Assembly (NCBI GenBank): GCA_030620115.1
Contig: JAUXFG010000091.1
Location: 1-15,464, forward strand
Direction of reading: 5' to 3'
DNA: 15,464 bases
Source of the DNA: Candidatus Fermentibacterota bacterium
Lineage (GTDB): Bacteria > JAFGKV01
Shown: piece by piece, positions 1 through 15,086 of the stretch
Layout of the letters: the number at the start of each line of letters is the position of its first letter
Position numbering within the stretch: position 1 is the stretch's first letter
Notes under the pieces: generated by a model
Seen by the model: only the letters and a program-made list of their open reading frames with translations
The model's database searches: none
Told to the model about the DNA's origin: nothing
Program-made: the position numbers and the translations under genes

Positions 1-490
1 ACAGCGGCTCATCCAAGAGGAGAAGATCCGGATCGTGCATCAATGACTGTGCGAGCTTGACCCGCTGCTTCTCTCCCTTGCTCATGGTGAGCGGCTCGCG
101 ATCCGCCAGAGCAAAAATCCCCAACTCGTGGAGAAGCTGCTCGGCCCGTGTCTTTGCCGCGCTGCGTGTCATGCCTGAGAGTCTGCCCATGAAAACCAGG
201 AATCGGATGGCACTCATGGCCGGGTAGAAGGGCTCGCCTTCAGGACAGATGCCGATGCGCGCCCGGAGCTCTGGCGAACCAGGCGGAACCTCCCCGAATA
301 CTTCCACTCGGCCCGCAGATGGGTGGAGGAGACCGACGAGGAGGCCCATCATGGTGCTTTTTCCCGCCCCGTTGGGCCCGAGCAGGCCCACGACGCCACC
401 TTTGTCGAGTTCGAGATCCACCGCGCTCAGACCAAGGACTTCGCCGTACCATTTGGATGCGCGCGTCAAAGAGATAACGGGGCTAAACAT
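1..490 (-). CDS. ABC transporter ATP-binding protein (3' end cut by window edge)
   Basis: ATPase subunit of an ABC exporter, expected to power the adjacent ABC-2 permease at the inner face of the cytoplasmic membrane. The 163 visible residues begin MFSPVISLTRASKWYG. They contain Walker A GPNGAGKS (about 38-45), a Q-loop region reading CPEGEPFYP in which glutamate stands where many families have glutamine, the signature MSKGEKQ (about 136-142) and Walker B LLLLDEPL (about 156-163). The frame then runs off the window, so the D-loop, H-loop and C-terminal part are unseen. The ATG at 490-488 overlaps the last 8 nt of the permease gene, which indicates translational coupling. The PEGE-type Q-loop and SKG signature are typical of drug/antibiotic-type ABC-2 ATPases and are shared with the ATPase at 1337-2245. 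It could pair with that ATPase as a heterodimer. The substrate is unknown. Confidence 0.92.
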   Translation of the reverse strand, partial: MFSPVISLTRASKWYGEVLGLSAVDLELDKGGVVGLLGPNGAGKSTMMGLLVGLLHPSAGRVEVFGEVPPGSPELRARIGICPEGEPFYPAMSAIRFLVFMGRLSGMTRSAAKTRAEQLLHELGIFALADREPLTMSKGEKQRVKLAQSLMHDPDLLLLDEPL

Positions 491-1334
491 CTGCAATGTG
501 ACGAGCCCCCCTGATCAGTCCAAGCACGGAAAGCAGGAGGAGAAATCCAAGCACGACCACTGCCCCGTATCCACAGTCACTGTGCCTGAGCTGATTCTCC
601 AAGACGAGGCTCGATATCTGGTCCAAATTTTCCGGCACGCTGATACATCGGGCGAATTTGCCGCCAAGGCCGGTGCCTCTGGCAATACTTCCTATGATAT
701 CCGTCCCGAAGTAGAGCAAGAGCCAAAGCATGGTTACTCCCCGGCGGGAGTTCCCCGCGGCGGAAAGGCTGATAACGATAAGGCTCATGAAGCCCGAGAC
801 GAGAAAACTGAAGGCCATGATCCGAAGGAGGCCAATCCACGGCAATGCAGCCAGGAGCTCCGGCGAGATGACCAGCCGTGCGAACAGGAACAGCATGGTG
901 AGCGGGACGAGCGTGGTGAACAGGAGAATCACCGCCACTACAAGCCAGTGGCCGAACAGGAATTCCCATGCGGACATGGGGCGGATAATATGGAAATGGG
1001 TGGCTCCCGCGCGTCGCTCACCCGCCAGCGCGGCGGGACCAACCACGGCGGCCAAGATTGCCGCACTCAAAACAAAACTGTCGACAAATGGCCTGGCGAG
1101 GCCGAGCTCGATGGTGGGGATCACCTCTGAAAACGGACCTCCGTGGAGCTTGCCCTGGCCTATGAGATAGAGGAACACTGCCCCCACCACAGTGGGGATA
1201 TTGGCGATGAGAAGCAGGATTATGACACTCTTGCGCCGGATCTGTTTCCTGAAGTACATACCAAAGAGCGCGAGCCATGGACGAGGAGATGGTTGGGGAG
1301 GAGTAGGGAGCGATTCGTAGGGGAATGCCGGCAT
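483..1334 (-). CDS. ABC-2 type transporter permease
   Basis: Integral membrane subunit of an ABC-2 exporter, 283 residues. I see about six hydrophobic segments, near residues 36-57, 86-105, 130-152, 168-192, 200-217 and 257-275. Between the second and third lies a cytoplasmic loop reading GERRAGATHFHIIRPMS, the hallmark 'ER..G....l.RP.s' stretch of the ABC2_membrane_2 permeases. The 35 or so residues before the first segment are proline-rich and without recognisable function. The ATG at 1334 is supported by an AAGGA about 9 nt upstream, within the end of the preceding ATPase gene, whose stop lies 2 nt away. The gene sits between two different ATPase genes, so one permease may serve a heterodimeric ATPase, or a second permease may lie beyond the left edge. 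Its place in a glycan operon suggests export of a glycan-related or envelope substrate; this is inference from context only. Confidence 0.88.
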   Translation of the reverse strand: MPAFPYESLPTPPQPSPRPWLALFGMYFRKQIRRKSVIILLLIANIPTVVGAVFLYLIGQGKLHGGPFSEVIPTIELGLARPFVDSFVLSAAILAAVVGPAALAGERRAGATHFHIIRPMSAWEFLFGHWLVVAVILLFTTLVPLTMLFLFARLVISPELLAALPWIGLLRIMAFSFLVSGFMSLIVISLSAAGNSRRGVTMLWLLLYFGTDIIGSIARGTGLGGKFARCISVPENLDQISSLVLENQLRHSDCGYGAVVVLGFLLLLSVLGLIRGARHIADV

Positions 1335-1336
1335 CT

Positions 1337-2245
1337 CTACGTATCCTTGCTCACGAGTCTGGTGAAGACTTCCTCCAGGCTTTCCCGCAGGGGGACAAGG
1401 CGTCTGATCTGCACACTCTGGGAAACCGCGTGCTGGATAAACTGATCTGCGGCGCCTCGCGACAAGGCGATCTGTCCCTCGCCATCCGTATCCACATCCA
1501 CCTTGAAGCCATGTGATTCCAGAAAGTCGATGAACGGCGGAATCGGACCTCTCATTGTCACTGCATAGAGATCAGTATCCTTACCCTGCATCTCGATGTC
1601 GACCAGACCCATCTTTCGACCCTGGGATAGAACCAATACGCGTCGGCATACCCGTCGGACGTCATCAAGAAGATGGGTGCAGAGGAGCAAGTCTTTTCCA
1701 TGATCATTGCCAAGTTCCTTGAGGAGGTCGAGCATTTCGTCGCGAGCCTTAGGATCCATGCCGTCAGTGGGTTCATCCAGGATGAGAAGCTTGGGGTCAT
1801 GGACCAAGGCCTGGGCCAGCTTCAACCGTTGGCGCATCCCCTTGGAGTACCCATCGATTTTCCTGTAACGATCACCCCCAAGGCCTACGTAATGCAGCAC
1901 CATGTGGGCACGGTCCATGGCCTCGGTGCTCGAAAGTCCCGAAATCCTCCCTGCATAGGCGGTGTATTGCACTGCCGTGATATCAGGCACCAGGATCTCT
2001 CCCTCGGGTACCAACCCGATCACTGCCTTCAATGCCTTCGACTCGGTGGCGACTTCCCGACCATGCACCCTCAGCTTGCCTTTTGGAATTCGCAGCAGGC
2101 CCATGATGATACGGACAAACGTCGTTTTGCCCGCACCGTTGGGCCCGAGAAGGCCGGTGGCTCCATTGGGGAGCGAGACGGTGAGGTCGGAGAGAGCGGG
2201 CGTATTCCCGTAGGAAAAGCTCAGGCTGTGGGCTTCAAGGAGCAT
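1337..2245 (-). CDS. ABC transporter ATP-binding protein
   Basis: Complete 302-residue ATPase of an ABC-2 exporter. Motifs in order are Walker A GPNGAGKT (34-41), a PEGE Q-loop variant (80-83), the signature YSKGMRQ (133-139), Walker B LLILDEP followed by the D-loop GMDP (153-164), and the H-loop histidine in CTHLL (about 191). The C-terminal 80 residues, from about 220, form the extra domain usual in DRA/CcmA-like ATPases. They lack the Wzt-type carbohydrate-binding extension, so this does not look like a classical O-antigen Wzm/Wzt exporter. The start is ATG 2245 with GAGG about 5 nt upstream. It overlaps the end of the preceding glycosyltransferase gene by 11 nt, and its stop is 2 nt before the permease start. 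All catalytic residues appear intact, so it should hydrolyse ATP. Confidence 0.95.
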   Translation of the reverse strand: MLLEAHSLSFSYGNTPALSDLTVSLPNGATGLLGPNGAGKTTFVRIIMGLLRIPKGKLRVHGREVATESKALKAVIGLVPEGEILVPDITAVQYTAYAGRISGLSSTEAMDRAHMVLHYVGLGGDRYRKIDGYSKGMRQRLKLAQALVHDPKLLILDEPTDGMDPKARDEMLDLLKELGNDHGKDLLLCTHLLDDVRRVCRRVLVLSQGRKMGLVDIEMQGKDTDLYAVTMRGPIPPFIDFLESHGFKVDVDTDGEGQIALSRGAADQFIQHAVSQSVQIRRLVPLRESLEEVFTRLVSKDT

Positions 2246-3443
2246 GCGAGCCTCGAGATGCCTGTGTCAGCATCAGTTCTTGCCACGCGGATTCAAGATC
2301 CCGGGCACTACTATCCCACGAGTAGCCCTGTTCGACGATGCGCCGTCCTTGTCTCCCCATTTCTTGCCCAAGGCCGGGCTCCCGCAGGATTCCGAGTACC
2401 GCGTCAATAAGGCCTCGCGTATCGTCAGCCACAAGCCCCGCGCTTTCCGCGCCATGGATGCCTTCGATGCCGATGGAAGAGGTGACAAACGGGAGGCCGC
2501 ACGCCATGGCCTCAAGTATTTTGAGTTTTGTCCCGCTCCCTGTTCTGAGAGGCGCCAACAAGAGGGTGGCCTTTTGGAGGAAGGGGTGTAGCTCGTCAAC
2601 TTCCCCCAATATCTCGACCCCGGGGATGTTGATTCGCGGTGGTCGCTCACCGATGACTTGGAGCACGACTCCGGGCTGTTGTCTCTGGACCTCGGGTAGA
2701 ATCTCTTTGATAATATAGGCCAACGCGTCCCTGTTCCCGAAAAACGAGAAGGTACCCACAAAGAGGATTATCGGGTTGCTCGCGCGGGCCCTTGTGACCG
2801 GTTTGAATCGCTCCAGATCCACACCATTACGTACGATCCAACACAAGGGAAGAGGGTGGACGCGGGAAAGAAGCTCCCTGTCCTTCTCCGAGACCAAAAC
2901 AAGGCCATCCGCCTGGGCGCATGCCTGTGTTTCGTAGTGTCTTGCCTTGGCCAATTCGATCCGTAGCCCGGCCCACCGCAGTGGGGAATGGTGTACGCGC
3001 AGGAATCGTTCCGTGACAAGGAATTCGAGACCTTGCTGTGAGAGGAGGACGGGAGGCCAATGGGCTGTCTTCGCCTGGGTGAGATTCCTCCACATGTGGA
3101 AGTGCTCACAATGCACAAGGTCGGGTTTCTCGGTCTTTACCACGTGGCGTAATGTGTCAACCATACGGCTGTTGAAGCTATTCGCCACCACCATGAAGGG
3201 CCATGGGCTCACGGCCCAGAGCAGCGGATTCCAAGGGCTTCGGGTTGGTCTTCGTTCTATCAGGTGCAAAGAGGAGATCAAACCCTCCAGCTCCTTGATG
3301 ACATGTTCGGGCTCTCCCCTGTGGTATGCGACCAAGATGATCTCATGGTTTCCGGAAAGCCTGGAGATCAGGTTCTTGACTCTACGCCTGCCGCCGGTGG
3401 TCACAGGCAGGGGAGGATAGGGGAGAAGCCAGACGATCTTCAT
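2235..3443 (-). CDS. Glycosyltransferase family 4 (GT-B fold)
   Basis: Predicted cytoplasmic or membrane-peripheral retaining glycosyltransferase of 402 residues, transferring a sugar from a nucleotide donor to a lipid-linked or other glycan acceptor. The N-terminal Rossmann domain opens KIVWLLPYPPLPVTTGGRRR, where the GG loop lies near the donor/acceptor cleft. The linker reads IVRNGVDLERF, and the C-terminal Glycos_transf_1 domain contains GSGTKLKILEAMACGLPFV. In that motif the first glutamate of the usual EX7E pair is replaced by the G-S-G-T-K form seen in the subgroup associated with exopolysaccharide (EpsH/PEP-CTERM-type) loci. The ATG at 3443 lies one nt after the upstream stop, with GGAAGAG as a plausible ribosome binding site. 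The donor and acceptor cannot be read from the sequence. Confidence 0.92.
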   Translation of the reverse strand: MKIVWLLPYPPLPVTTGGRRRVKNLISRLSGNHEIILVAYHRGEPEHVIKELEGLISSLHLIERRPTRSPWNPLLWAVSPWPFMVVANSFNSRMVDTLRHVVKTEKPDLVHCEHFHMWRNLTQAKTAHWPPVLLSQQGLEFLVTERFLRVHHSPLRWAGLRIELAKARHYETQACAQADGLVLVSEKDRELLSRVHPLPLCWIVRNGVDLERFKPVTRARASNPIILFVGTFSFFGNRDALAYIIKEILPEVQRQQPGVVLQVIGERPPRINIPGVEILGEVDELHPFLQKATLLLAPLRTGSGTKLKILEAMACGLPFVTSSIGIEGIHGAESAGLVADDTRGLIDAVLGILREPGLGQEMGRQGRRIVEQGYSWDSSARDLESAWQELMLTQASRGSHAP

Positions 3444-3444
3444 G

Positions 3445-4980
3445 TCACCGCTCTTCCGTTATTCCTATGCCTGTGGGAATCCTGAACTCGTTTACCATGA
3501 TGCCTTGCCGCGTCCATGTACTGTCATTCCGCATGACAAGGGAGAGAAGCCCTAACATCCGTGCCCCGTATTCATCGTGACTCATCACGACCCAGAGACG
3601 CCTCCCCCCCCGCTCGCGGAATTCGGTAACCACTGAGTCAGCCACCGTGCTATCGGGGAGGAATGTTGTGCCTGAGGCCAGTCTCTCCGGTCTGAAATCA
3701 AGGTAGCGGTCCAGACAGGGGGCAGTGTAGTGCCTCCGCTGCAGCAGAAGATCACCTGGTTCCCAGCGCTCTTGGAGTAGTGCTGCAACGGTGCGCCAGT
3801 CCTCTTTCCAAGGGATGGCCTCCATATGGAATCTGGAGGCCGAGACCAGAAGAGCTCCCAAGGCCACGATGCAGAGGATCTTTCCCATGAAGCGGGAAAG
3901 GCTCCATCGTGCACCTGCGGCCACGAGGATTGCCCACCATGGCGCGACGAAAGAGACATACTTCGTATCATAGACATTGGCCTGGTGCAAACCTGAGGCA
4001 ATGGCGCCGCCTACGGATATCAACCCAAGTGTGATGATGACTCCGCGAGACGTGAGGGCTGTGCCCGGCAATCGACGGCCTAGCTCGCGGATGCCCATGA
4101 CGGCAAGAAAGATAAAGACGAGAAAGGAGAAATGCTTGAAAAGATCGGGGAGATCCAAGCCCAGTTCGCCGGCCAGGAGCACGTATTTGCCCGAGGAGAA
4201 ATCAAGGATCGTCCAGTAGAGGTCTCTGCCGAGGTGTAACGCCAGATGGGCTATCCCCGAGAACGGATCGATGAGGCCCTCGCCCCATCGGGCTCTATGG
4301 CCGCTCTGAACCAGAAGTGCATGCCCCCAAAGACCCAGGAATAGGGAGATGGGGAAGATAACCGCAAAGCGGATCCCCCGGCTCCTTGTGCACCAAGACG
4401 AGAGCACCAACTCACCTGCCAGGAGAAGTAACATATGATAGTGGGAAAAGAGCCCCACCACGGCGCTCACTACCAAAAGCGCGAACCACTTCCTCGTGCC
4501 GTCTGTGGTGAACCTGATGAAGGAGATGAAGTGCACCGTTCCGATGACCGCTAACCACGCATAATGTCTCCCCTCCTGGCTGAGATAGAGGTGGTAACCG
4601 CCAAAGGTGATCATGACCGCAGCGAGAAGAGCCACCACCCGGTTCTTGGTGAGAATCAATGCGGCCCACGCAGTCAGCGGTATGAGCATTATCCCACAAC
4701 AGAGCGGGAGGAGGCGAACGGTGAAGTCGGAATCCCCGAACAGGTCCAACCAGGCTCTCAGCAGAAGTGCGTACACGGGGGGATGGAAATCCTGGTGCAC
4801 CATGTAATCCACCACATCGCCTATGCCGGGTGCTTGCGCGGCCTGGACGAACAGCGCCTCGTCGAGCCATAGGCTTTGATCATCGAGGTGCCAGAGCCTA
4901 AGACCCGCGCCCATCAGGATGAGGAGAACAAGTGCAAGCGGATAGAGCATCCGAGGCCATGGCCGTGTCCTTGAGGTCAT
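3445..4980 (-). CDS. GT39-like integral membrane glycosyltransferase (PMT/ArnT type)
   Basis: Predicted polytopic GT-C glycosyltransferase of 511 residues. This family uses polyprenyl-phosphate-linked sugars and works on the outer face of the cytoplasmic membrane. Family signatures are SLWLDEALF near residues 36-44 (the catalytic-type acidic pair D40/E41 in the first extracytoplasmic loop), HPPVYALLL near 66-74, and LSQEGRHYAW near 133-142. At least eight strongly hydrophobic segments follow before a soluble C-terminal domain of about 130 residues. The open frame extends another 82 codons upstream, but that stretch overlaps the methyltransferase gene and lacks family features. The ATG at 4980 forms a 4-nt ATGA overlap with the methyltransferase stop, so I choose it. 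It could add a sugar to a lipid-linked glycan, lipid A-like anchor or protein; the substrate is open. Confidence 0.87.
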   Translation of the reverse strand: MTSRTRPWPRMLYPLALVLLILMGAGLRLWHLDDQSLWLDEALFVQAAQAPGIGDVVDYMVHQDFHPPVYALLLRAWLDLFGDSDFTVRLLPLCCGIMLIPLTAWAALILTKNRVVALLAAVMITFGGYHLYLSQEGRHYAWLAVIGTVHFISFIRFTTDGTRKWFALLVVSAVVGLFSHYHMLLLLAGELVLSSWCTRSRGIRFAVIFPISLFLGLWGHALLVQSGHRARWGEGLIDPFSGIAHLALHLGRDLYWTILDFSSGKYVLLAGELGLDLPDLFKHFSFLVFIFLAVMGIRELGRRLPGTALTSRGVIITLGLISVGGAIASGLHQANVYDTKYVSFVAPWWAILVAAGARWSLSRFMGKILCIVALGALLVSASRFHMEAIPWKEDWRTVAALLQERWEPGDLLLQRRHYTAPCLDRYLDFRPERLASGTTFLPDSTVADSVVTEFRERGGRRLWVVMSHDEYGARMLGLLSLVMRNDSTWTRQGIMVNEFRIPTGIGITEER

Positions 4981-6008
4981 CGTGGGATCCCCGTCCTTTT
5001 CTCTGCGATCAGACAGACATTCATTCCAAGGAGGAGTTGGATAATAGCCGTTCCTGTGCGTGTGTAGACTAGCCGCTTCAATGGTGATCTCCAGATCAGC
5101 CGCGCGAGCTTGGTCAACCGCGTAGAAGAAACCGAGCGTCCTGTCTGTTCCTGAAGCATGGCGGCGTAGTAGGGCGGGAAGAGGAAAACGGGGGACAGGG
5201 ATGCGCCTCGGAGAGCACGCCGCCACTGAAAGTAGTTAAAACTCTGTTCATTGATCCCGGGGTTGTCTTCGGCGGCCTGGTCAATGAATCGTTTGCCGCT
5301 GCGCCGCAAGAGCCCGTGCATGGGTTCATTGATCACTACAAGCCTTCCCCCAGGTTTCAACACACGTGCCGCCTCGCACAGGCTCGCCCCTAGATTCTCC
5401 GCATGGTGAAGCGAGGCGGAGACGAACACAAGGTCGAAGCCCGCGGCAAATGGGAGGTCAGTCATATCGGCAAGGACCCGATCGAAGTAGACCCTCCGTT
5501 GTTTCATGATGAGGGGCGACAGATCGAGCTTCAGATCCTTCGAGATATCGGTGGCAACGCAAGAAAGGCCAAGGGCCGCCCAACGGCTTGTCAGCCACCC
5601 CGAACCCGCGCCAAGCTCCAGGAGCCACATGCCGGGCAGGGGCCGGACATGCGGGAGAATGCCCTCCAAGTTCAGCTCGGAAGTCAGCTGGAACTGTTCG
5701 CCCGTATGTTCCATCAGCGCGATCCTTCGCAGCTCTATTTCCTTTGTTGCAGGCGCCAGAGCTTGAATCCGCGCGGCGACTTCTTCTTTGCTCTTCGCGT
5801 AGGCTTCCCGTTCGTTCAGGACCGTGGGCGAGGGGTCCGCGATGAGATCGGGTATGCCCTCCGAGAGCGGATAGGAAGCGCCGCAGGCGCTGCAGCGAAG
5901 AGAGCCTTCCCATAGCTTGTCTTCTCGAATGTGCATACGCTGGGGCGATAGCGAACCATCCCGCCGACAAGACGGGCATCGAAGGAGCTGGAGTAGTTCC
6001 TTTCTCAC
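4977..6008 (-). CDS. Class I SAM-dependent methyltransferase with N-terminal Trm112-type zinc ribbon
   Basis: 343 residues. The first 60 form a Trm112-like zinc ribbon, with cysteines 11, 14, 39 and 42 in CPSC...CSAC followed by YPLSEGIPDLI. A Rossmann methyltransferase domain follows, with SAM motif I LLELGAGSGWLT (129-140), an acidic residue in VATDIS (about 154) that would bind the ribose, and VFVSASLHHAEN as the motif IV region. The C-terminal 100 residues are basic and partly hydrophobic. The start is GTG at 6008. It makes a GTGA overlap with the upstream stop and has AAGGA 9 nt before it, which makes GTG convincing. In glycan loci such enzymes commonly O-methylate a sugar or cap a chain, but acting on a lipid or small molecule is equally possible from sequence alone. 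Confidence 0.9.
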   Translation of the reverse strand: MRKELLQLLRCPSCRRDGSLSPQRMHIREDKLWEGSLRCSACGASYPLSEGIPDLIADPSPTVLNEREAYAKSKEEVAARIQALAPATKEIELRRIALMEHTGEQFQLTSELNLEGILPHVRPLPGMWLLELGAGSGWLTSRWAALGLSCVATDISKDLKLDLSPLIMKQRRVYFDRVLADMTDLPFAAGFDLVFVSASLHHAENLGASLCEAARVLKPGGRLVVINEPMHGLLRRSGKRFIDQAAEDNPGINEQSFNYFQWRRALRGASLSPVFLFPPYYAAMLQEQTGRSVSSTRLTKLARLIWRSPLKRLVYTRTGTAIIQLLLGMNVCLIAEKRTGIPR

Positions 6009-7147
6009 GGGAGCAGTTCCTTATAGAGCGAGAGAATCGCATTTGCTTGAACCATAGGGGAGTAGCGCGTTCGCACCAGAGGAGGCCCTAATTCCTGTGC
6101 CGCCTTGTGGATCTCCTTATTCGTTATGGTTTCCCTCAAGGCGGCGGCCAACCCGGCGGCGTCGTGCGGCGGAACCAGCACGGCGCCCTGAAAACCACGG
6201 AGTATCTCAGCCGGACCTCCTGAATTGCATGCCACTACCGGGATACCCCGGGAGAGGGCCTCCAGTACCACCAGCCCGAATGGTTCCCGTGGGGAGGGAA
6301 GGATGAACAGATCGATGGATGCATAGAATTTATCGAGATCCGAAAGTCGTCCGAGAAAGCGGACCCGGTGGTCGATCCCCCAAAGCCGAATATGGCTTCG
6401 CCAGAACGACAGCGCGGAATCACCATGGAAGGGCGAATCTCCTGCCAGCAGCAGATAGAGGGATGAGTCAAAGGAATCGAGCAGTCTCAGGGCCTCGAGC
6501 AGTGTCCCGAGTCCCTTTTCCTCGTCGAGTCGTCCTGCATAGCCTCCTACAAGTGCCTCTGGCGGGATGCCAAGCTGGTGCCGGAGGCTCTGCCCGTATG
6601 TCTTTTCCTTGGCGGGGAAGGTCACTGCATTGTGTATTACCGTAACGCGGTGGTCACCGAATACCTCATGTGCAACATCCCGAGATACAGCCGCCATGGC
6701 ATCTGCGGAGTGGATGGCGAGCCTTCTCCAAACCTGTCTGAAGGCGCCCAACGGCAAGTAGTCGTGCACATGCCAGAGGATCAGGAGGCGGTGGGATCTG
6801 CCCACGGCCAGACGTGCGAGGATTGCGGCCTTGGCGCTGTGCGCATGAATAATGTCTGGTGAGACTTTACGGATGATCCGTCGCAGATCGCGGAGGATCG
6901 AAGGACCAGCACGCAAAGCCGGAAGCACGATTCGTGGATCATATGAGCGGCGAAGCGCAGCGAATGGCAGCGGGAAAAACCGAGCTCCCTGGTTAATGAT
7001 GGCCTTGCCGAGAGGACCATTGGGGGCGGCAACCGTTTGGTTGACGGACTCCTTAGGGAGCCATGCAACGATGTTCTCAACCACTTGCTCCGTGCCTCCG
7101 GGTCCTGGCGTGTGGACCAGGTGCAAGATGCGCATGACCTGACTCAT
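6005..7147 (-). CDS. Glycosyltransferase family 4 (GT-B fold)
   Basis: Predicted retaining glycosyltransferase of 380 residues. It begins MSQVMRILHLVHTPGPGGTE, where the GGTE loop marks the N-terminal Glyco_trans_4-like domain. VIHNAVTF is the inter-domain linker, GYAGRLDEEKGLGTLLEAL opens the nucleotide-sugar-binding domain, and EPFGLVVLEALSRGIPVV carries the EX7E pair. The open frame extends 39 codons further upstream, but that part lies inside the preceding gene. ATG 7147 forms an ATGA overlap with the upstream stop and begins four residues before the first conserved strand. A second ATG at 7135 is possible. Its stop overlaps the GTG start of the methyltransferase. It probably builds the same glycan as its neighbours; sugar specificity is unknown. 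Confidence 0.93.
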   Translation of the reverse strand: MSQVMRILHLVHTPGPGGTEQVVENIVAWLPKESVNQTVAAPNGPLGKAIINQGARFFPLPFAALRRSYDPRIVLPALRAGPSILRDLRRIIRKVSPDIIHAHSAKAAILARLAVGRSHRLLILWHVHDYLPLGAFRQVWRRLAIHSADAMAAVSRDVAHEVFGDHRVTVIHNAVTFPAKEKTYGQSLRHQLGIPPEALVGGYAGRLDEEKGLGTLLEALRLLDSFDSSLYLLLAGDSPFHGDSALSFWRSHIRLWGIDHRVRFLGRLSDLDKFYASIDLFILPSPREPFGLVVLEALSRGIPVVACNSGGPAEILRGFQGAVLVPPHDAAGLAAALRETITNKEIHKAAQELGPPLVRTRYSPMVQANAILSLYKELLP

Positions 7148-8340
7148 GTGAGATCCTGAACCAGGGCATCCAGAGCCGAGGCCATATTCTCCCAAGAGAA
7201 TCCGCAGGCAAAAGCCCGGCATGCTTCGGGGAGATCCTGACACATGGCAAGGAGATCGATGCATGCAGCCGCCATGGTTTCCGGGGAATGTGGGGCGACG
7301 ATCCTTGTGATCTCATTTGCTTCGCCAAGCAGAAGGGGTGTCTCACCGATGTTGGTGGCCAGAACGGGAACTCCACTTGCCAACGCCTCCAAAGATACGA
7401 GGCCGAACCCTTCCAACGCGGTACTGGGGAGCACAAATACGTCAGCCGCTCGATAGTATTTCGGCAGGTCATTTTCGGGCACAAACCCGGTCAACCGCAG
7501 ATTCGAGGCCAATCCTGCGGCATCTGCCCGCGACTGCAGCCGTCCGGCTAAGACGCCTTGTCCCACGATGACAAGAAGTATCCGCGGATGTGTCGCCGCC
7601 ACCATCAAGAGCATGTCCAGTAGTGTATCAAGACCCATTCGAGGCACAAGCCGACGGACGGTCAGGAGTACCGGGCGGTCCGGCTCGATACACACATCCG
7701 TTTTGGCGGAACGCTTGTCTGAAGGTGGGTGGAATCGCTCGAGGTCCACACCGGGCCTCATGACCACGATCTCAGGGCTCCTGGTTCCCAGCAGGTGCTG
7801 AACCTGTTTTTTGCTGTATGATCCCAAGACCACGACCTTGGAAGCACGACGCAGGCTGGCCCGCTGCATGGCCCGCAGGAGTGGTGGAAAAACTGCTGCC
7901 AGTAGAGGTGATACGGTCCTGCGGGTCAGGTCTTTCGTCGTTCCCCGCCACTGGAGAAGCCACTCTTCGTCGACTGGACCGTAGAAAAAGCTCACGGTCT
8001 GTCGATTTTTCAAATGACCTGTCGAAGAAGCAGTCCAACCTGAGATCGCATGATGGAGGAGCACTACGCCATCACGGACCGGGATGGGGAGCGCATCCAG
8101 ATGCCTCAAGCGAAGATATGTGGTGATTGCCAGGAGGGGCAACGGCGACAGGGCGACAGGGTAGCGCCACTCGGGTATCGGGTCCTGTGAATCAGGGTAT
8201 TGCCAGCTGCTCCCCCCGGCAAGGATACCAGGTCTGTGACCAAGGGTTCGAAGTGCCCGGGAGAGCTCATCGATGACTCGCTCCGAGCCGCCGTGTCGCT
8301 CCGGCGGGTAGAGATCAGCAATGGACAGATAGTGCCGCAA
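7144..8340 (-). CDS. Glycosyltransferase family 4 (GT-B fold), TTG start
   Basis: Predicted retaining glycosyltransferase of 398 residues. The N-terminal domain starts HYLSIADLYPPERHGGSERV, with the usual PP...GG.E loop. The linker is VMRPGVDLERFHPP. The donor domain reads VLLTVRRLVPRMGLDTLL, then ADVFVLPSTALEGFGLVSLEA, which contains an intact EX7E, then SGVPVLATNIGETPLLL. The predicted start is TTG at 8340. An in-frame stop lies about 30 nt upstream, no ATG or GTG occurs between it and the first conserved strand, and the first in-frame ATG falls far inside the protein. The ribosome binding site is weak (AGCAGG only 3 nt away). The stop overlaps the next gene by 4 nt (ATGA). It is separated by about 140 nt from the upstream ligase-like gene, unlike all later junctions in this operon. 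Confidence 0.9.
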   Translation of the reverse strand: MRHYLSIADLYPPERHGGSERVIDELSRALRTLGHRPGILAGGSSWQYPDSQDPIPEWRYPVALSPLPLLAITTYLRLRHLDALPIPVRDGVVLLHHAISGWTASSTGHLKNRQTVSFFYGPVDEEWLLQWRGTTKDLTRRTVSPLLAAVFPPLLRAMQRASLRRASKVVVLGSYSKKQVQHLLGTRSPEIVVMRPGVDLERFHPPSDKRSAKTDVCIEPDRPVLLTVRRLVPRMGLDTLLDMLLMVAATHPRILLVIVGQGVLAGRLQSRADAAGLASNLRLTGFVPENDLPKYYRAADVFVLPSTALEGFGLVSLEALASGVPVLATNIGETPLLLGEANEITRIVAPHSPETMAAACIDLLAMCQDLPEACRAFACGFSWENMASALDALVQDLT

Positions 8341-8480
8341 CGGCCTGCTACCGAGAAGTCCGGGCTAGCCTGCAACGATGCCGGTGTTTTCTTCGTCGGA
8401 GGGCTGCACGAGAGAATCTGCGAGAGATGCAGGAGGGGGCCGACAGATTATGTCTTTGCCACACATTCACCATGGGATCA
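8341..8480. other. Intergenic gap inside the glycan cluster
   Basis: This 140-nt non-coding stretch separates the ligase-like gene from the eight tightly coupled downstream genes. On the minus strand it contains CATAAT, a 5/6 match to a -10 box, near its upstream end, but no convincing -35 at the right distance. It may hold an internal promoter or simply be a degraded spacer. I see no hairpin followed by a T-run, so termination is not indicated. Confidence 0.4.
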
Positions 8481-9920
8481 CTAGCTGATCCTATAGGGCG
8501 CGGGAGGGCCGTGTGCACGTTCCATCTCTTCCACTTCCTTGGAGCGCGCTTCGACCTCTGGGAGCGAAACAAGCAGCCCGGCAAGACACCAGTAGTAGAG
8601 ATCCAGGGGGAAGGCATCAAAGGCAACGCCAATCATGTTCCCTGCCGTGACCTCCATATTCACGGCCAGGGCGGCCAAGGCGATTGCCTTGAGAAAAGGA
8701 TCGCTGAGTTTCCGGAAGATAGCGAAGCCCGTGGCGAAAAACTGCACGAAGATCCAGACGAAGAGTGCAAGACCGGGAAAACCCATCTGAATGCCGATGT
8801 GGAGGTAGCCGTTTTCCGTCCCACCCTCCAGGCGTTGGAACTCACCCGTTAAGCCGGTAACCTGTGAGAGCCCAGAAACCACGCCATAGTTGAATCCCCG
8901 AGTAGTACCCAGTCCGGCGCCAAGCGGATGTTGAATCATGTCGGGTATTCCCACGTTGAAGAGGAACCACGTGCGAAACTGAAAGCTCGAGTCCTCTTCT
9001 CCGAACGTCATGGCGGCACGTTCTCTGAAGGCGGCGGGGAAGATCAGGAGAATGGCGAGAACCCCCAGCAGCATGAGTAGGAGTGGGCTCTTCCGACCGC
9101 TGAAGTGGCTCATTGCTATCATGCCCAGGCCAAATAGAAGTGTTGGCCCCCTCGACATGGTGAAGACCAGAGAGGTAAACAGGATGACCATGATGAAGAA
9201 AACAAGGCGCTTGCTAATCTCGCTATCTTTACTCACAAAGAGCGCCGAGGCGATGAAGAGGTATACGAGTACATTCGCCGCGAAGAAGCCCGGCCCTCCG
9301 AACGTAGACCAAACCCTGAGGAAGTTGGAATTGGGGAACGCCACATTCCGCCCGACGTACATCAGGTTGTGCTCGATGAGCCACCCGCCTCCCGCGAGCC
9401 TTTGGCCGATGGCAATGACTGCGGTAAATGTACCAACTGCAAGAAGTCCCCAGATAATCTTTTTCAATTGGCTCTTGGTGAGAGGATTGTTCGCGACGAA
9501 GTAGAAGATCGGAATAAAAGGAACCATCTTCTTGAGCTCGTATAATCCTTGAAGCAGCGTGGGTGAAGTGAATGCATGCATGACGGCCAAACCGGTGAAG
9601 AGCCCAATGGGTAAGTTTAGCCCATTGGGCCGGAGCTTCTGCCGGTGCACGATCTGTCGTGCCAGCCAACCGATGGCGAGACACACCGCAAGAAACTCTT
9701 TCCAGAGCGCGGATGAGGGGCCAAGGAGATACGCCCTCAGAACGCCGTGGAATGGCGCCAGCACGAGCAGCAACATGAGGACCACGAATGGCTTGGAAAA
9801 GCTCGCCAGAACGCCGACAAATGCCAGAAGACCGATTACTACACGGGGATCTCCCGCGGAGAGATTTGTTCCCAGGAAGTAACCGGCAATGGCGATTACC
9901 GCCAAAATGATCAACTGCAT
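8481..9920 (-). CDS. O-antigen ligase/polymerase-like membrane protein (Wzy_C family)
   Basis: Predicted polytopic membrane protein of 479 residues with roughly a dozen hydrophobic segments. Family landmarks are STFGGPGFFAANV (205-217), TMSRGPT (254-260), RTWFLFNVG...HPLGAGLGT across the long extracytoplasmic loop (316-339) and ENGYLHIGIQMGFPGL (369-384). These match the O-antigen ligase (WaaL)/polymerase (Wzy) superfamily, which joins undecaprenyl-linked glycans to a lipid acceptor or polymerises repeat units in the periplasm. Sequence alone does not separate ligase from polymerase, or from protein O-oligosaccharyltransferase. The ATG at 9920 has a strong GAGGTGA 4 nt upstream. This is the first gene of the minus-strand cluster. 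Its C-terminal 25 residues are charged and probably cytoplasmic. Confidence 0.87.
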   Translation of the reverse strand: MQLIILAVIAIAGYFLGTNLSAGDPRVVIGLLAFVGVLASFSKPFVVLMLLLVLAPFHGVLRAYLLGPSSALWKEFLAVCLAIGWLARQIVHRQKLRPNGLNLPIGLFTGLAVMHAFTSPTLLQGLYELKKMVPFIPIFYFVANNPLTKSQLKKIIWGLLAVGTFTAVIAIGQRLAGGGWLIEHNLMYVGRNVAFPNSNFLRVWSTFGGPGFFAANVLVYLFIASALFVSKDSEISKRLVFFIMVILFTSLVFTMSRGPTLLFGLGMIAMSHFSGRKSPLLLMLLGVLAILLIFPAAFRERAAMTFGEEDSSFQFRTWFLFNVGIPDMIQHPLGAGLGTTRGFNYGVVSGLSQVTGLTGEFQRLEGGTENGYLHIGIQMGFPGLALFVWIFVQFFATGFAIFRKLSDPFLKAIALAALAVNMEVTAGNMIGVAFDAFPLDLYYWCLAGLLVSLPEVEARSKEVEEMERAHGPPAPYRIS

Positions 9921-11360: not shown

Positions 11361-11630
11361 GACAACTCCTGAATGAGGGTTGCGACGAAACACAGTGACG
11401 GGAAGGAAAATAGGCGTTCTTGCGGTGCTTTGCCAGAGAAGTGGCGGATTAGGGGTTCAGGATTAGGGGTTCAGGGTTCGGAGCTCACCGGCTAGACCTG
11501 TGAGTGTCTATCTTTTGCGATAGATCGCGCCGATAGTCGCTAACGGCCTTGTCACAGGAAGATGGAGTACATGAATTGTGTTCATCTATTGGCCAATTCT
11601 CACTCAATGCAGAGAGGAAAAGGACGGACA
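11361..11630. other. Divergent intergenic region between ychF and the GTPase operon
   Basis: It must contain promoters for both directions. For ychF, TTGCCA (11430-11435) and AAAATA (11407-11412), read on the minus strand as TGGCAA and TATTTT with a 17-nt spacer, are a weak candidate. For the plus strand, TTGTCA (11549-11554) has an acceptable distance only to poor -10 boxes. The segment from about 11570 to 11630 is visibly richer in A+T than the coding DNA that follows, which suits a leader. A 14-bp tandem repeat lies in the middle. Confidence 0.5.
11447..11481. repeat. 14-bp tandem direct repeat with GGGTTCAG core
   Basis: GATTAGGGGTTCAG occurs twice without interruption (11447-11460 and 11461-11474). 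A degenerate third core, GGGTTCGG, follows at 11474-11481. Related cores recur downstream of the GTPase pair at 15062-15086. It lies between divergent genes, so it could be neutral slippage or a dispersed intergenic repeat. No coding or binding function can be read from it. Confidence 0.85.
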
Positions 11631-13340
11631 ATGCCCTGTGGTGACCACGGAATTTTGCGAGACTTCAAGCGTCTGATGGAGGGTGTTACCCTTGTTGCCG
11701 GAGGCGCCGCAGGGCGAGAGGCGCGTCAGCTGCAAGAGGAGGTTCAGTCTCTTCTGCGCGACAAGATCATCTTCGAGTCGGCGAATTCGAGGCCCCTGGT
11801 GATTGCGGTAGTGGGAGGGACGAATGTAGGGAAAAGCACGGTGGTGAACCTTGTGGTGGGGGAAGAGAGGTCAGCGATCTCGGCATTGGCGCGGGGCACG
11901 AAGACGCCGGTTGTCTGTGCTGATGAGCCAACACTGCAGGAGTTGGAGGATCAGGGCTTTATTCATGACGTCACACTGGCACGATCAAATGGCCCCACGG
12001 GGCTGCAGGCCGCCAAGCTTCCGACAGTTATGCTTTCCAGAACGCAGGGATTTCCACCCCCCGGCGTGCTGCTGGTGGACTCGCCGGACATGGATAGCGA
12101 GTTTGCCCGGAACAGGGCGTGGGCTCACCGACTCCTGAATGTGGCAGATGCCATCATCGTGGTGGTCACGCCCGAGAAGTACAATGACGAAGTTGTCATT
12201 CAGTTCTTGAAAGCGGCGGTCTCCCGAGGCCGCGAGATGGCGGCGGTGTTCAACAAGAACCAAGAGGATGATGCCTACGAAGACTTCTTGAGGACCGTGT
12301 GGCGAGAAAACGCGGGGAATACACCGGTGGTCGATATTCCCTGGTGCACAGACGGGGTATGCCCCGTGGACCGAGGCAATCCAATTCGGGAGATTATCGA
12401 ACTATGGGCCTCACAACGTGTAGCTGTCAAGATCCGCGCATTGGACGGATCCATCAATGAGCTGAAAAGGGGAGCCGAAACGCTATGCGATTTCTTCATG
12501 CGCGAGCAGGAATGGTTATTGGATATGCTTAGGGCGTTCGATGGCGCGCTTGCCGGGGTGACCGAGGCATACCGAGGGGACATATCTGGTGAGAAATTCG
12601 CCGAACTGGATCGAGTGTTTGCGCGGCTTCTTCAAGATCTTCGCATCCCTGTGCTTGATGATTTTTACGGCGGAATTCGTGCTATCGGACGGACCGTTTG
12701 GTCAAGACTTGGCGCTCTCGCTGGTTTTTCCACTATGAAAGAGCAGGAGGCGTCCGAACGACGCGCGCGGGAACGAGATCGTATCAGGGATGCCTGCGAA
12801 CTGCTCAGGACAGGATTGCAGCGCACTGTTCAGGAAGTACCCCTGGCAATGAGATCAGCCGCCGATGATTGGAGCAAAGCCATCCCCCCCTCGCCGGGAA
12901 GAGAGAAGGTGGCGGCATATTTGAATGAGGTGGATATGGGGGTGGAACGTTGGGTGGAGGAGGAGACCGAGGCCATGGCAAGAAAGCTCGCTGATAAACC
13001 TGGGCTTCGAACCTTTCTCGTCGCTTCCAAGGCCACACTCCAGATAGGGTCCGGCGTGCTGGGCGCCGTACTCACGGGGGGGCTCGATCCTACTGACTTG
13101 GCGCTGATTCCCGCATTCGAGCGGCTCAGTGCATACCTGATCGAGCGAGGCATTGGTTATTCTCATTTCAGGAGATGCCGGGCGCGTTTGCTCGATCTTC
13201 GTGCCGGTTGTCTCGAAGAATTCCTTGCCAAGTCCCTGGTGAATGCGGTTCGGGCTGAAGTACCCGCACCCAGAGAAGAATTGGCAGATGAGCTCAGCCG
13301 AGCAATCGAAGCTTTTCCCCAGGCTCGGGAGCTTCTCTGA
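11631..13340 (+). CDS. Large P-loop GTPase, first of a tandem pair (dynamin-like arrangement)
   Basis: Predicted GTP-binding protein of 569 residues in no family I can name. Visible motifs are G1 GGTNVGKST (62-70), a likely switch I in RGTKTPVV (88-95), G3 as DSPDMDS (150-156) where DxxG is usual, then IIVVVTPEKY and an altered G4 FNKNQ (207-211). Residues from about 260 are mainly helical, with a charged stretch EQEASERRARERDRIRD (371-387) that may form a coiled coil. A hydrophobic patch, GSGVLGAVLTGG (473-484), could be a membrane-touching region but is short for a transmembrane helix. I chose ATG 11631 because AAAGGA lies 6 nt upstream and earlier in-frame ATGs (11562, 11571, 11607) sit in A+T-rich leader DNA with poorer ribosome binding sites. 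The gene may start at 11562, giving 592 residues. Its TGA shares one base with the next ATG. The overall layout recalls bacterial dynamin-like proteins; a role in membrane remodelling is inference. Confidence 0.82.
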   Translation: MPCGDHGILRDFKRLMEGVTLVAGGAAGREARQLQEEVQSLLRDKIIFESANSRPLVIAVVGGTNVGKSTVVNLVVGEERSAISALARGTKTPVVCADEPTLQELEDQGFIHDVTLARSNGPTGLQAAKLPTVMLSRTQGFPPPGVLLVDSPDMDSEFARNRAWAHRLLNVADAIIVVVTPEKYNDEVVIQFLKAAVSRGREMAAVFNKNQEDDAYEDFLRTVWRENAGNTPVVDIPWCTDGVCPVDRGNPIREIIELWASQRVAVKIRALDGSINELKRGAETLCDFFMREQEWLLDMLRAFDGALAGVTEAYRGDISGEKFAELDRVFARLLQDLRIPVLDDFYGGIRAIGRTVWSRLGALAGFSTMKEQEASERRARERDRIRDACELLRTGLQRTVQEVPLAMRSAADDWSKAIPPSPGREKVAAYLNEVDMGVERWVEEETEAMARKLADKPGLRTFLVASKATLQIGSGVLGAVLTGGLDPTDLALIPAFERLSAYLIERGIGYSHFRRCRARLLDLRAGCLEEFLAKSLVNAVRAEVPAPREELADELSRAIEAFPQARELL

Positions 13341-15034
13341 TGCTGGAAAGAATGGCCAAGGTCCGAGCTGCCATAGCCGCGCTTCGAAGCATTGCCAATG
13401 CCTGTCCGTTTTTTCCTTCGCTCTCCCATGGAGAGGGGCAGCTTGCTGCGTTGTTGGGACAGGTCCAACACGGCCTGGAGGCGCCGGGTCGACCATTCCG
13501 GATTCTGCTCACTGGTGGCACGGGAGTGGGAAAATCGACGCTCCTGAATGCTTTTGCCGGCGCCACCATTGCGACAACGGGAGCGCGAAGACCGACAACT
13601 ACGGGATTCAGCATCTATCTCCACCATTCGGACGTGGATCCCTGGCTCGAAGCACTCGACCAGGGGGAGATCATCAGGCATAGTCGCCCGGAGCTCTTGG
13701 GCAAGGTACTCTTGGATTCCCCCGATGTGGATAGTGCCATCACCGAACATCGAGCAGTTCTGGAGAGAGCACTGGCGTTGGCAGACCTGGCACTCGTGGT
13801 GGTTACCGGGGAGAAGTACGTCTCTGAGAGCCTCTTCAGCCTTTTGAGGGAGTATCACGAAGGAAGAGCCTTCGCTTTTGTGTTCAACAAGACTGATCTC
13901 TCACCTGAATCGTCTCTGATACAGGACTTTCGGGATCAATTAGATACGGCAGGTTACCACGGGAGCCCCGTTTTTGCACTTTCCGCGAGGAATGCCCTTA
14001 CCAAGCACTCCGAGGAGGGAGTACGGCTGGATGATGATTTTGGGGAGCTGGTTTCCTATATCGGGGAGGAGCTCCATGCCAGTCGGATCCGAGAGATCGA
14101 ACAAAGCAATGTCAGAGAGCGGGCCGGTATTGTGACCTCCTTTGTGCGCTCCCTCCTCCCTGGTGCGTGGGAGCAAGCCGCGCAGGAGTGGAAAGATGGG
14201 TGCGGGATGCTCTTCTCTGAATTCCTGCAGGAAGTGACCGTGTCGCTCCAGCGACTGGTGCTGCGTGAAGATGAACTCGCAGTCGCCATTGCCTCAGCGC
14301 GGGGGTCTTCGTTCGAGGGGCCATTCGGTTTTGTTGCAGAACTGGTCTACGTCATGCGACGGCTGCGGGGCAACAGCCCACGATTCACGACGCCGGGCGA
14401 AGTCGGTGAGTGGTTGCGGGCAAGGTTGAATTATGGCTTCTGGGCACGGCTCGAAAGGCGAGAGAAGCTGCTCTTAGAGGCATGTGCGCAATTGGGGCCC
14501 GCCAATGGTCTGGCATCGGATGCATTGAGAGAGGAGTTGGAGGAGTTAGAGCCCGAGAGTGATGGAATCGTTTCGTGGTTCAGAGACCATCTTGCGGGAT
14601 CACTGGCTTCAGGATGGCGGCAGCATGTAGATGCACCCGGGCATCTGCTGAACTGGTTGGTCAACCTTCCCGCATGGGCCTGGGGACTCTACTGGATGTA
14701 TCGGCTGATCCAGCCAGTGCTGAAGGGCCAGTCACCCCCCTGGGAGGCTATTCCGGGCGCAGCCGTGGTCTTGGTGGTATTCCTTCTAATCGAATGGTCA
14801 TTGGTCCATCGGCTGCTCAGACGAGACGGCGCGGGGAGAGCAAATAGGATGGTCCTTTCGGTGCTCTCCGATCTGGATGCGGAGTTTTACGGTTCTCGAG
14901 GTCGTTCAGTGGCGACGGTGGCCGCGAGAATTGCGCAGTGCACAGAGCAGCTCTCAACCGCGCTTGCTGCGTTAGATGCAGTAGCTGATAGCTCATGGAC
15001 ACCCCATGGGGAGCGAAATTCAAGAGATCCGTGA
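13340..15034 (+). CDS. Large membrane-anchored P-loop GTPase, second of a tandem pair
   Basis: Predicted GTPase of 564 residues, paralogous to its upstream neighbour. Motifs are G1 GGTGVGKST (59-67), switch I in RRPTTTGFSIY (83-93), G3 DSPDVDS (126-132), VVVTGEKY (153-160), a canonical G4 FNKTD (182-186) and a G5-like SARNA (215-219). A long, mostly helical middle region follows. Two hydrophobic segments near 436-457 and 471-491 flank a short GQSPPWE loop, so the protein is probably a membrane hairpin with both ends in the cytoplasm. A short helical tail follows. ATG 13340 overlaps the upstream stop as TGATG, which couples translation. An ATG four codons later (13352) is an alternative. A stalk-like helical region plus a paired membrane hairpin after a GTPase head is the plan of bacterial dynamin-like proteins such as IniA or BDLP. 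I did not recognise closer homology, and the function is unknown. Confidence 0.83.
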   Translation: MLERMAKVRAAIAALRSIANACPFFPSLSHGEGQLAALLGQVQHGLEAPGRPFRILLTGGTGVGKSTLLNAFAGATIATTGARRPTTTGFSIYLHHSDVDPWLEALDQGEIIRHSRPELLGKVLLDSPDVDSAITEHRAVLERALALADLALVVVTGEKYVSESLFSLLREYHEGRAFAFVFNKTDLSPESSLIQDFRDQLDTAGYHGSPVFALSARNALTKHSEEGVRLDDDFGELVSYIGEELHASRIREIEQSNVRERAGIVTSFVRSLLPGAWEQAAQEWKDGCGMLFSEFLQEVTVSLQRLVLREDELAVAIASARGSSFEGPFGFVAELVYVMRRLRGNSPRFTTPGEVGEWLRARLNYGFWARLERREKLLLEACAQLGPANGLASDALREELEELEPESDGIVSWFRDHLAGSLASGWRQHVDAPGHLLNWLVNLPAWAWGLYWMYRLIQPVLKGQSPPWEAIPGAAVVLVVFLLIEWSLVHRLLRRDGAGRANRMVLSVLSDLDAEFYGSRGRSVATVAARIAQCTEQLSTALAALDAVADSSWTPHGERNSRDP

Positions 15035-15061: not shown

Positions 15062-15086
15062 GGGTTTCAGGGTTCAGAGTTCAGGG
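15062..15086. repeat. Short GGGTTCAG-type tandem repeat
   Basis: Three imperfect units follow each other: GGGTTTCAG, GGGTTCAG and AGTTCAGG. They share the core seen at 11447-11481 in the same orientation. The two sites bracket the complete two-gene GTPase operon. This may be coincidence if the repeat is common in the genome. Confidence 0.7.

Follow-up and report, generated by a model that had tools for sequence, protein, structure and literature searches.

A conserved pair of adjacent dynamin-like GTPase genes, most likely of the DynA/DynB type, in Candidatus Fermentibacterota and several other bacterial phyla

Dynamin-like proteins (DLPs) are usually found in bacteria as pairs, few of which have been studied. 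The closest described system is DynA/DynB of Streptomyces (S. venezuelae; dynB is vnz_12105): this is a side-by-side pair whose members interact in vivo and of which one, DynB, carries two transmembrane segments (PMC8748795, PMC6104087, PMC5827413), and it acts at the divisome (PMC8748795). The present analysis concerns two adjacent genes on a 15,464-nucleotide stretch of DNA, hereafter the window, from a Candidatus Fermentibacterota bacterium (contig JAUXFG010000091.1), a member of a candidate phylum far from Actinomycetota. The upstream gene, P1, and the downstream gene, P2, encode proteins of 569 and 564 residues. They form a real and well-conserved heterotypic pair, most likely of the DynA/DynB type, and the two products are probably subunits of a heterotypic dynamin-like complex that remodels the inner membrane.

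Other described systems resemble the pair in part. Campylobacter jejuni Cj-DLP1/Cj-DLP2 is likewise an operonic pair of unequal partners, and both models, P1 and P2, have its solved chains 5owv and 5oxf high among their Foldseek matches; Cj-DLP1 differs by a 119-residue N-terminal assembly domain (PMC6104087) that is absent here, as P1 and P2 have approximately 50 residues ahead of the G domain. Mycobacterial IniA/IniC is also an adjacent dynamin-like pair, and IniA aligns with the P2 model over 185 residues of the G domain (Z 19.3, 2.6 Å). However, searches of PDB sequences returned no IniA match and no iniB-like neighbour was seen. Tandem organisation is shared with the cyanobacterial BDLP clades ‘HSR1’ and ‘Tandem A/B’ (PMC5827413); in the former an HSR1-type GTPase comes after a DLP, and by description this layout may correspond to the one seen here. 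Classical DLPs sampled here differ from P1 and P2 in carrying DTPG, not DxPD, in the G3 motif. The eukaryotic mitofusin/Fzo1 proteins, although only 12–14% identical, are the best structural match of both models over G domain and neck and likewise have a hydrophobic hairpin that precedes the final long helix. Their G3 motif has the canonical glycine.

Both reading frames, and the TGATG junction that had been noticed in a sequence-only reading of the window, are confirmed (Table 1). A single base is shared, position 13340, where the P1 stop codon TGA (13338–13340) ends and the P2 start codon ATG begins; in two sister genomes (L009 and L010) the overlap amounts to 4 bases. An alternative in-frame ATG at 11562 would lengthen P1 to 592 residues, but homologues fit the start at 11631 better. 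The G domains of P1 and P2 are 34% identical over 176 columns (BLASTP, E 4e-11), and a profile–profile comparison (hhalign) joins them with a probability of 99.7 over 208 columns that cover the N-terminus and G domain. No sequence similarity was detected between the C-terminal halves; the architecture is common to both. The similarity is not due to chance, and on sequence grounds the two genes are judged to be a diverged paralogous pair, as the sequence-only reading had held. That reading had also placed GGTxVGKST, DSPDxDS, VVVTxEKY and FNK in the same order and spacing in both proteins: the order is identical, but the spacing differs somewhat because the G1–G3 stretch is longer in P1. No further close relatives of either gene were found in the window genome.

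A dynamin-type assignment rests on the fold, since G3 in both proteins and G4 in P1 leave the consensus. AlphaFold2 models were built from small, shallow alignments (predicted local distance difference test score, pLDDT, 76 and predicted template modelling score 0.69 for P1; 80 and 0.62 for P2). Each comprises, in order, N-terminal helices, a G domain, long helices, a hydrophobic hairpin and one final long helix, and in each the N-terminal, post-G and C-terminal helices assemble into a neck bundle like that of mitofusin and BDLP. BDLP was the first-ranked Foldseek match of both models; other high-ranking matches were IniA, the Campylobacter DLP pair, Drp1 and mitofusins. In VIA-align the best match of P1 was Fzo1 (Z 21.8, 318 residues, 4.4 Å; aligned range 1–567) and that of P2 was Mfn1 (Z 21.9, 305 residues, 4.2 Å; aligned range 1–556), the alignments spanning N- to C-terminus and taking in G domain plus neck; simple GTPases reached Z of about 14–17, matching the G domain. 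Superposition on full-length BDLP gives a large root-mean-square deviation, and the trunk angle is not fixed by the models. Both sequences also exceed the Pfam Dynamin_N (PF00350) gathering score, and sequence searches of the PDB returned mainly P-loop matches. As modelled, P1 and P2 thus have a dynamin-like fold of the mitofusin/BDLP type, which removes the alternative of a simple Era/TrmE-like GTPase joined to an unrelated domain.

The hairpin of P2, about residues 435–490, has a peak Kyte–Doolittle value of 2.34, and its second helix continues into the last long helix; the other P2 proteins examined have hydrophobic peaks of 1.84–2.52, and a streptomycete P2 (genome G247) has two hydrophobic segments. 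At the matching place P1 carries a weaker segment (463–481, Kyte–Doolittle 1.41), and about 15 of 17 P1s reach at least 1.3 in that place, most P1 relatives lying between 1.4 and 2.6. The proposed division into one soluble and one membrane-anchored protein therefore stands, as a prediction, for P2 with its clear hairpin, but is doubtful for P1, which is probably better read as peripheral. IniA, despite a predicted transmembrane-like segment in the corresponding region, purifies as a soluble protein (PMC6715688).

Adjacency of the two genes is the rule rather than a peculiarity of this contig. The order P1 then P2 is found in all three genomes sampled from the window's phylum. Among 383 genomes, a P2 profile search matched 27 outside that phylum, and in at least 12 of these the gene immediately preceding P2 is of P1 type; several others are classical DLPs with GEFNxGKS. 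A P1 profile was run in three phyla, adjacency being counted by hand over assessable loci. In the phylum of genome G111, apparently Actinomycetota, 25 of 119 genomes have a P1 match and P2 follows in 21/21 loci. In that of G279 the match is present in 51 of 68 genomes (33 of the 38 of good quality) and P2 follows in 26/28. The third phylum, that of G275, is Planctomycetota, because the loci of three of its genomes (G610, G578, G568) are identical to Planctomycetota/Planctomycetales GenBank contigs; P1 matches occur in 23/119 genomes, and the two genes are again found as neighbours in the same order. Homologues are thus not usually single, and the adjacency that the sequence-only reading had asked about extends across phyla. 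Searches of genome contigs yielded five loci with a P1 alignment and no match with the single P2 sequence; no relatives were found in viral contigs in two scans. Two G279-phylum genomes (L140 after 3168; L156 below 688) have a putative bacterial membrane protein with a PH domain in place of P2 after P1. A separate tandem of smaller GTPases, of 422 and 385 residues with GKTGVGKST and GITGVGKST, lies at L076 6979–9397.

The two partners have evolved in a matched manner. A tree was built from the G domains of 36 pairs and eight other DLPs, one pair with very long branches (L060) being excluded. P1 proteins from all phyla fall together on the same side of one branch (support 95/98), and the P1 and P2 subgroups largely correspond; monophyly of P2 with respect to other DLPs is not resolved (support 40/28). 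The P1 and P2 distance matrices correlate with r 0.80, the best of 5000 permutations reaching 0.32. One Planctomycetota genome, G650, harbours two separate pairs, L171 and L185, on different branches: both members of L185 have L176 as nearest relative, and the members of L171 fall elsewhere. These results are most simply read as a single ancient pairing whose two genes were passed on together, by inheritance or by transfer.

The link to DynA/DynB is provided by three large genomes of one genus, G247, G479 and G500. The ettA gene flanking the G247 pair is 89.3% identical to that of Streptomyces and at most 82% to those of other genera, and the streptomycete pairs group with the other P1s and P2s on the G-domain tree. 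G247 and G479 contain one Dynamin_N match each, which is the P1 gene, with P2 adjoining; because this is their sole Dynamin_N gene, the streptomycete pair is, by elimination, quite likely to be DynA/DynB. The suggestion that the window pair lies outside the named families, DynA/DynB in particular, is thus not borne out, whereas that of unequal bacterial dynamin-like partners is upheld by fold, homology and cross-phylum pairing. At sequence level the distance is considerable, window P1 being 28% identical to an actinobacterial (Nonomuraea) relative over half of its length. G500 has three further classical DLPs besides its P1/P2 pair; these genes stand in tandem, apart from the pair (G500:C1:6512468–6516813; L202, L206, L207).

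The consensus of G1, G3 (DxxG) and G4 (T/NKxD) characterises the dynamin superfamily without defining it, and two of these motifs depart from it here. G3 reads DxPD in 37/37 P1s and 37/37 P2s, and DTPG in 8/8 other DLPs; L072_P1 and L170_P2, which a simple pattern misread, were scored by eye. The G4 aspartate, counted by hand with any residue allowed between N/T and D, is kept in 7 of 36 P1s versus 28 of 35 P2s. In the phylum of G279 the bias partly turns round: P1 often reads NKAD, and most P2s are devoid of the aspartate. At least one partner retains this residue in 32/35 pairs, a proportion not clearly above that expected under independence. In the window G1 is intact in both proteins and G4 in P2, and both miss the DxxG consensus of G3.

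These observations are best explained by the following scheme. P2 would be held in the cytoplasmic membrane by its two-helix hairpin, equivalent to the paddle of mitofusin and BDLP. P1, made together with P2 from the overlapping genes, would be recruited through contacts of the G domain and neck/stalk, and may touch the membrane through its weaker paddle-like segment. The hinge angle would change on binding and hydrolysis of GTP, a task that probably falls mainly to P2 here because P1 has lost the G4 aspartate, and this change would stabilise or reshape curved inner membrane, perhaps where the cell divides. The role in cell division is the least certain element. Several points weigh against a DynA/DynB-type complex of this kind. 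Identity with the streptomycete proteins was reached by elimination and not by direct comparison with the named sequences; the correspondence of the P1 and P2 trees may in part reflect shared species history, which is still contained in the correlation; and GTP hydrolysis may be weak or absent, because G3 and G4 depart from the dynamin consensus. In four Planctomycetota genomes (G138, G630, G635, G653) both genes are present but apart, so that tight co-expression is not universal. Finally, the 21 Planctomycetota carriers all lack detectable FtsZ, which runs counter to a purely FtsZ-bound role.

The FtsZ distribution bears on the strongest competing explanation, a heterotypic dynamin-like pair with a division-independent job, for instance in tethering, repairing or stabilising the inner membrane, roles put forward for Campylobacter DLP1/2 or Bacillus subtilis DynA. 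Outside Planctomycetota, 12 of 13 carriers have an FtsZ match that exceeds the model cut-off, and the exception is 82% complete; the window genome has FtsZ. None of the 21 Planctomycetota carriers yields such a match. Four of these genomes are single contigs at 99% completeness, and for G631 and G640, also counted here, the P1-type gene alone was seen. That Planctomycetes lack ftsZ is already known (PMC4164004). As the pair persists without detectable FtsZ, stabilisation of the Z-ring cannot be its sole function. Moreover, no conserved division gene adjoins the pair across the lineages compared, and in Campylobacter knocking out dlp1/2 causes no obvious defect in division (PMC6104087). Missing shared neighbours are weak evidence, however, and Streptomyces DynA/DynB, the only experimentally studied likely relatives, act at the divisome (PMC8748795). 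A division-independent role is therefore a serious contender, somewhat short of an even chance.

A variant of the preferred scheme makes P2 the sole true GTPase and assigns P1 a regulatory role, as a catalytically weak or non-guanine subunit; it is possible and a little less probable than a division-independent role. The uneven retention of the G4 aspartate, and NKNQ in the window P1, speak for it. P1 nevertheless retains an intact G1 and a conserved G3, the G3 change affects both partners, and the asymmetry is not fixed, as the G279 phylum illustrates. A bolder proposal, which we regard as unlikely, takes the pair as a cross-phylum family in which the G3 glycine was replaced by aspartate in both members and guanine recognition was split between them, and which in FtsZ-less Planctomycetota would make an FtsZ-independent membrane contribution to budding or division.

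That the pair serves against phage or envelope stress, as had been raised from the sequence, is improbable. DynA makes B. subtilis tolerant to phage and IniA has been tied to drug tolerance (PMC8844932, PMC6715688), and weak PADLOC matches are present in the G-domain region (LeoA, E 5e-7; LeoBC, 3e-6). However, these matches lie mainly over the P-loop region, no defence model was matched over its full length, there was no PHROG match, viral relatives were lacking in the two scans and no defence genes are neighbours; near-core status in the G279 phylum is also unlike that of defence islands. Two Era/Der-like GTPases, ribosome-associated or other, lying merely side by side are a very remote prospect, largely refuted already: MMR_HSR1 scores above cut-off in both proteins and NCBIfam and PDB sequence matches point to Der and Era, but the Der/Era matches take in only part of the G domain at no more than 35 bits, far under the curated NCBIfam cut-offs, the models agree with dynamin-family proteins over the neck too, and P2 has a membrane hairpin.

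Table 1. Features of the P1/P2 locus, in window coordinates; residue numbers refer to the respective protein
Feature	Position	Strand	Details
P1, dynamin-like GTPase, DynA-type upstream partner (most likely)	11631..13340	+	Dynamin_N 32.9 bits (cut-off 27); model; motifs
P1 motifs			G1 GGTNVGKST, residues 62–70; G3 DSPD, 150–153; G4 NKNQ, 208–211 (guanine-specifying Asp lost)
P1 weak hydrophobic paddle-like hairpin, about residues 463–508	13017..13153	+	Low pLDDT; conserved GGLxxxDL turn
P2, dynamin-like GTPase with membrane hairpin, DynB-type downstream partner (most likely)	13340..15034	+	Dynamin_N 28.7 bits (cut-off 27)
P2 motifs			G1 GGTGVGKST, residues 59–67; G3 DSPD, 126–129; G4 NKTD, 183–186
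P2 two-helix hydrophobic hairpin, about residues 435–490, predicted membrane anchor	14642..14809	+	Model and hydropathy
TGATG stop/start overlap between P1 and P2	13338..13342	+	Putative translational coupling

The surroundings of the pair offer no shared functional clue: no gene neighbours common to the different phyla were found. Left of P1 in the window lie ychF and a glycosyltransferase/O-antigen-ligase/ABC-transporter cluster. This cell-surface polysaccharide-type cluster occupies 483–9920 on the minus strand, comprises an ABC transporter, several glycosyltransferases, a methyltransferase and an O-antigen ligase family protein, and is not conserved near the pair in other genomes. Directly 3' of P2 in both sister genomes is a gene for a DUF456 membrane protein (L010 3221–3709, Pfam-checked there, and the matching place in L009); it does not follow P2 in the window. 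The pair is flanked by short tandem GGGTTCA heptanucleotide repeats (11466–11479 and 15062–15082). The 14-mer of this repeat occurs 235 times in the genome with at most one mismatch, versus two occurrences for the reversed control.

If the assignment to DynA/DynB is true, this type of pair would be no actinobacterial speciality but an old two-subunit module, matched across several phyla. Of specialist interest are DxPD in G3, the unevenness with which the G4 aspartate has been lost and the presence of the pair without FtsZ; shared DxPD and the loss in P1 yield clear predictions on nucleotide use. In the Planctomycetota carriers without detectable FtsZ, a basic membrane function would be separated from the Z-ring, and the pair provides a named candidate for work on how this group divides.

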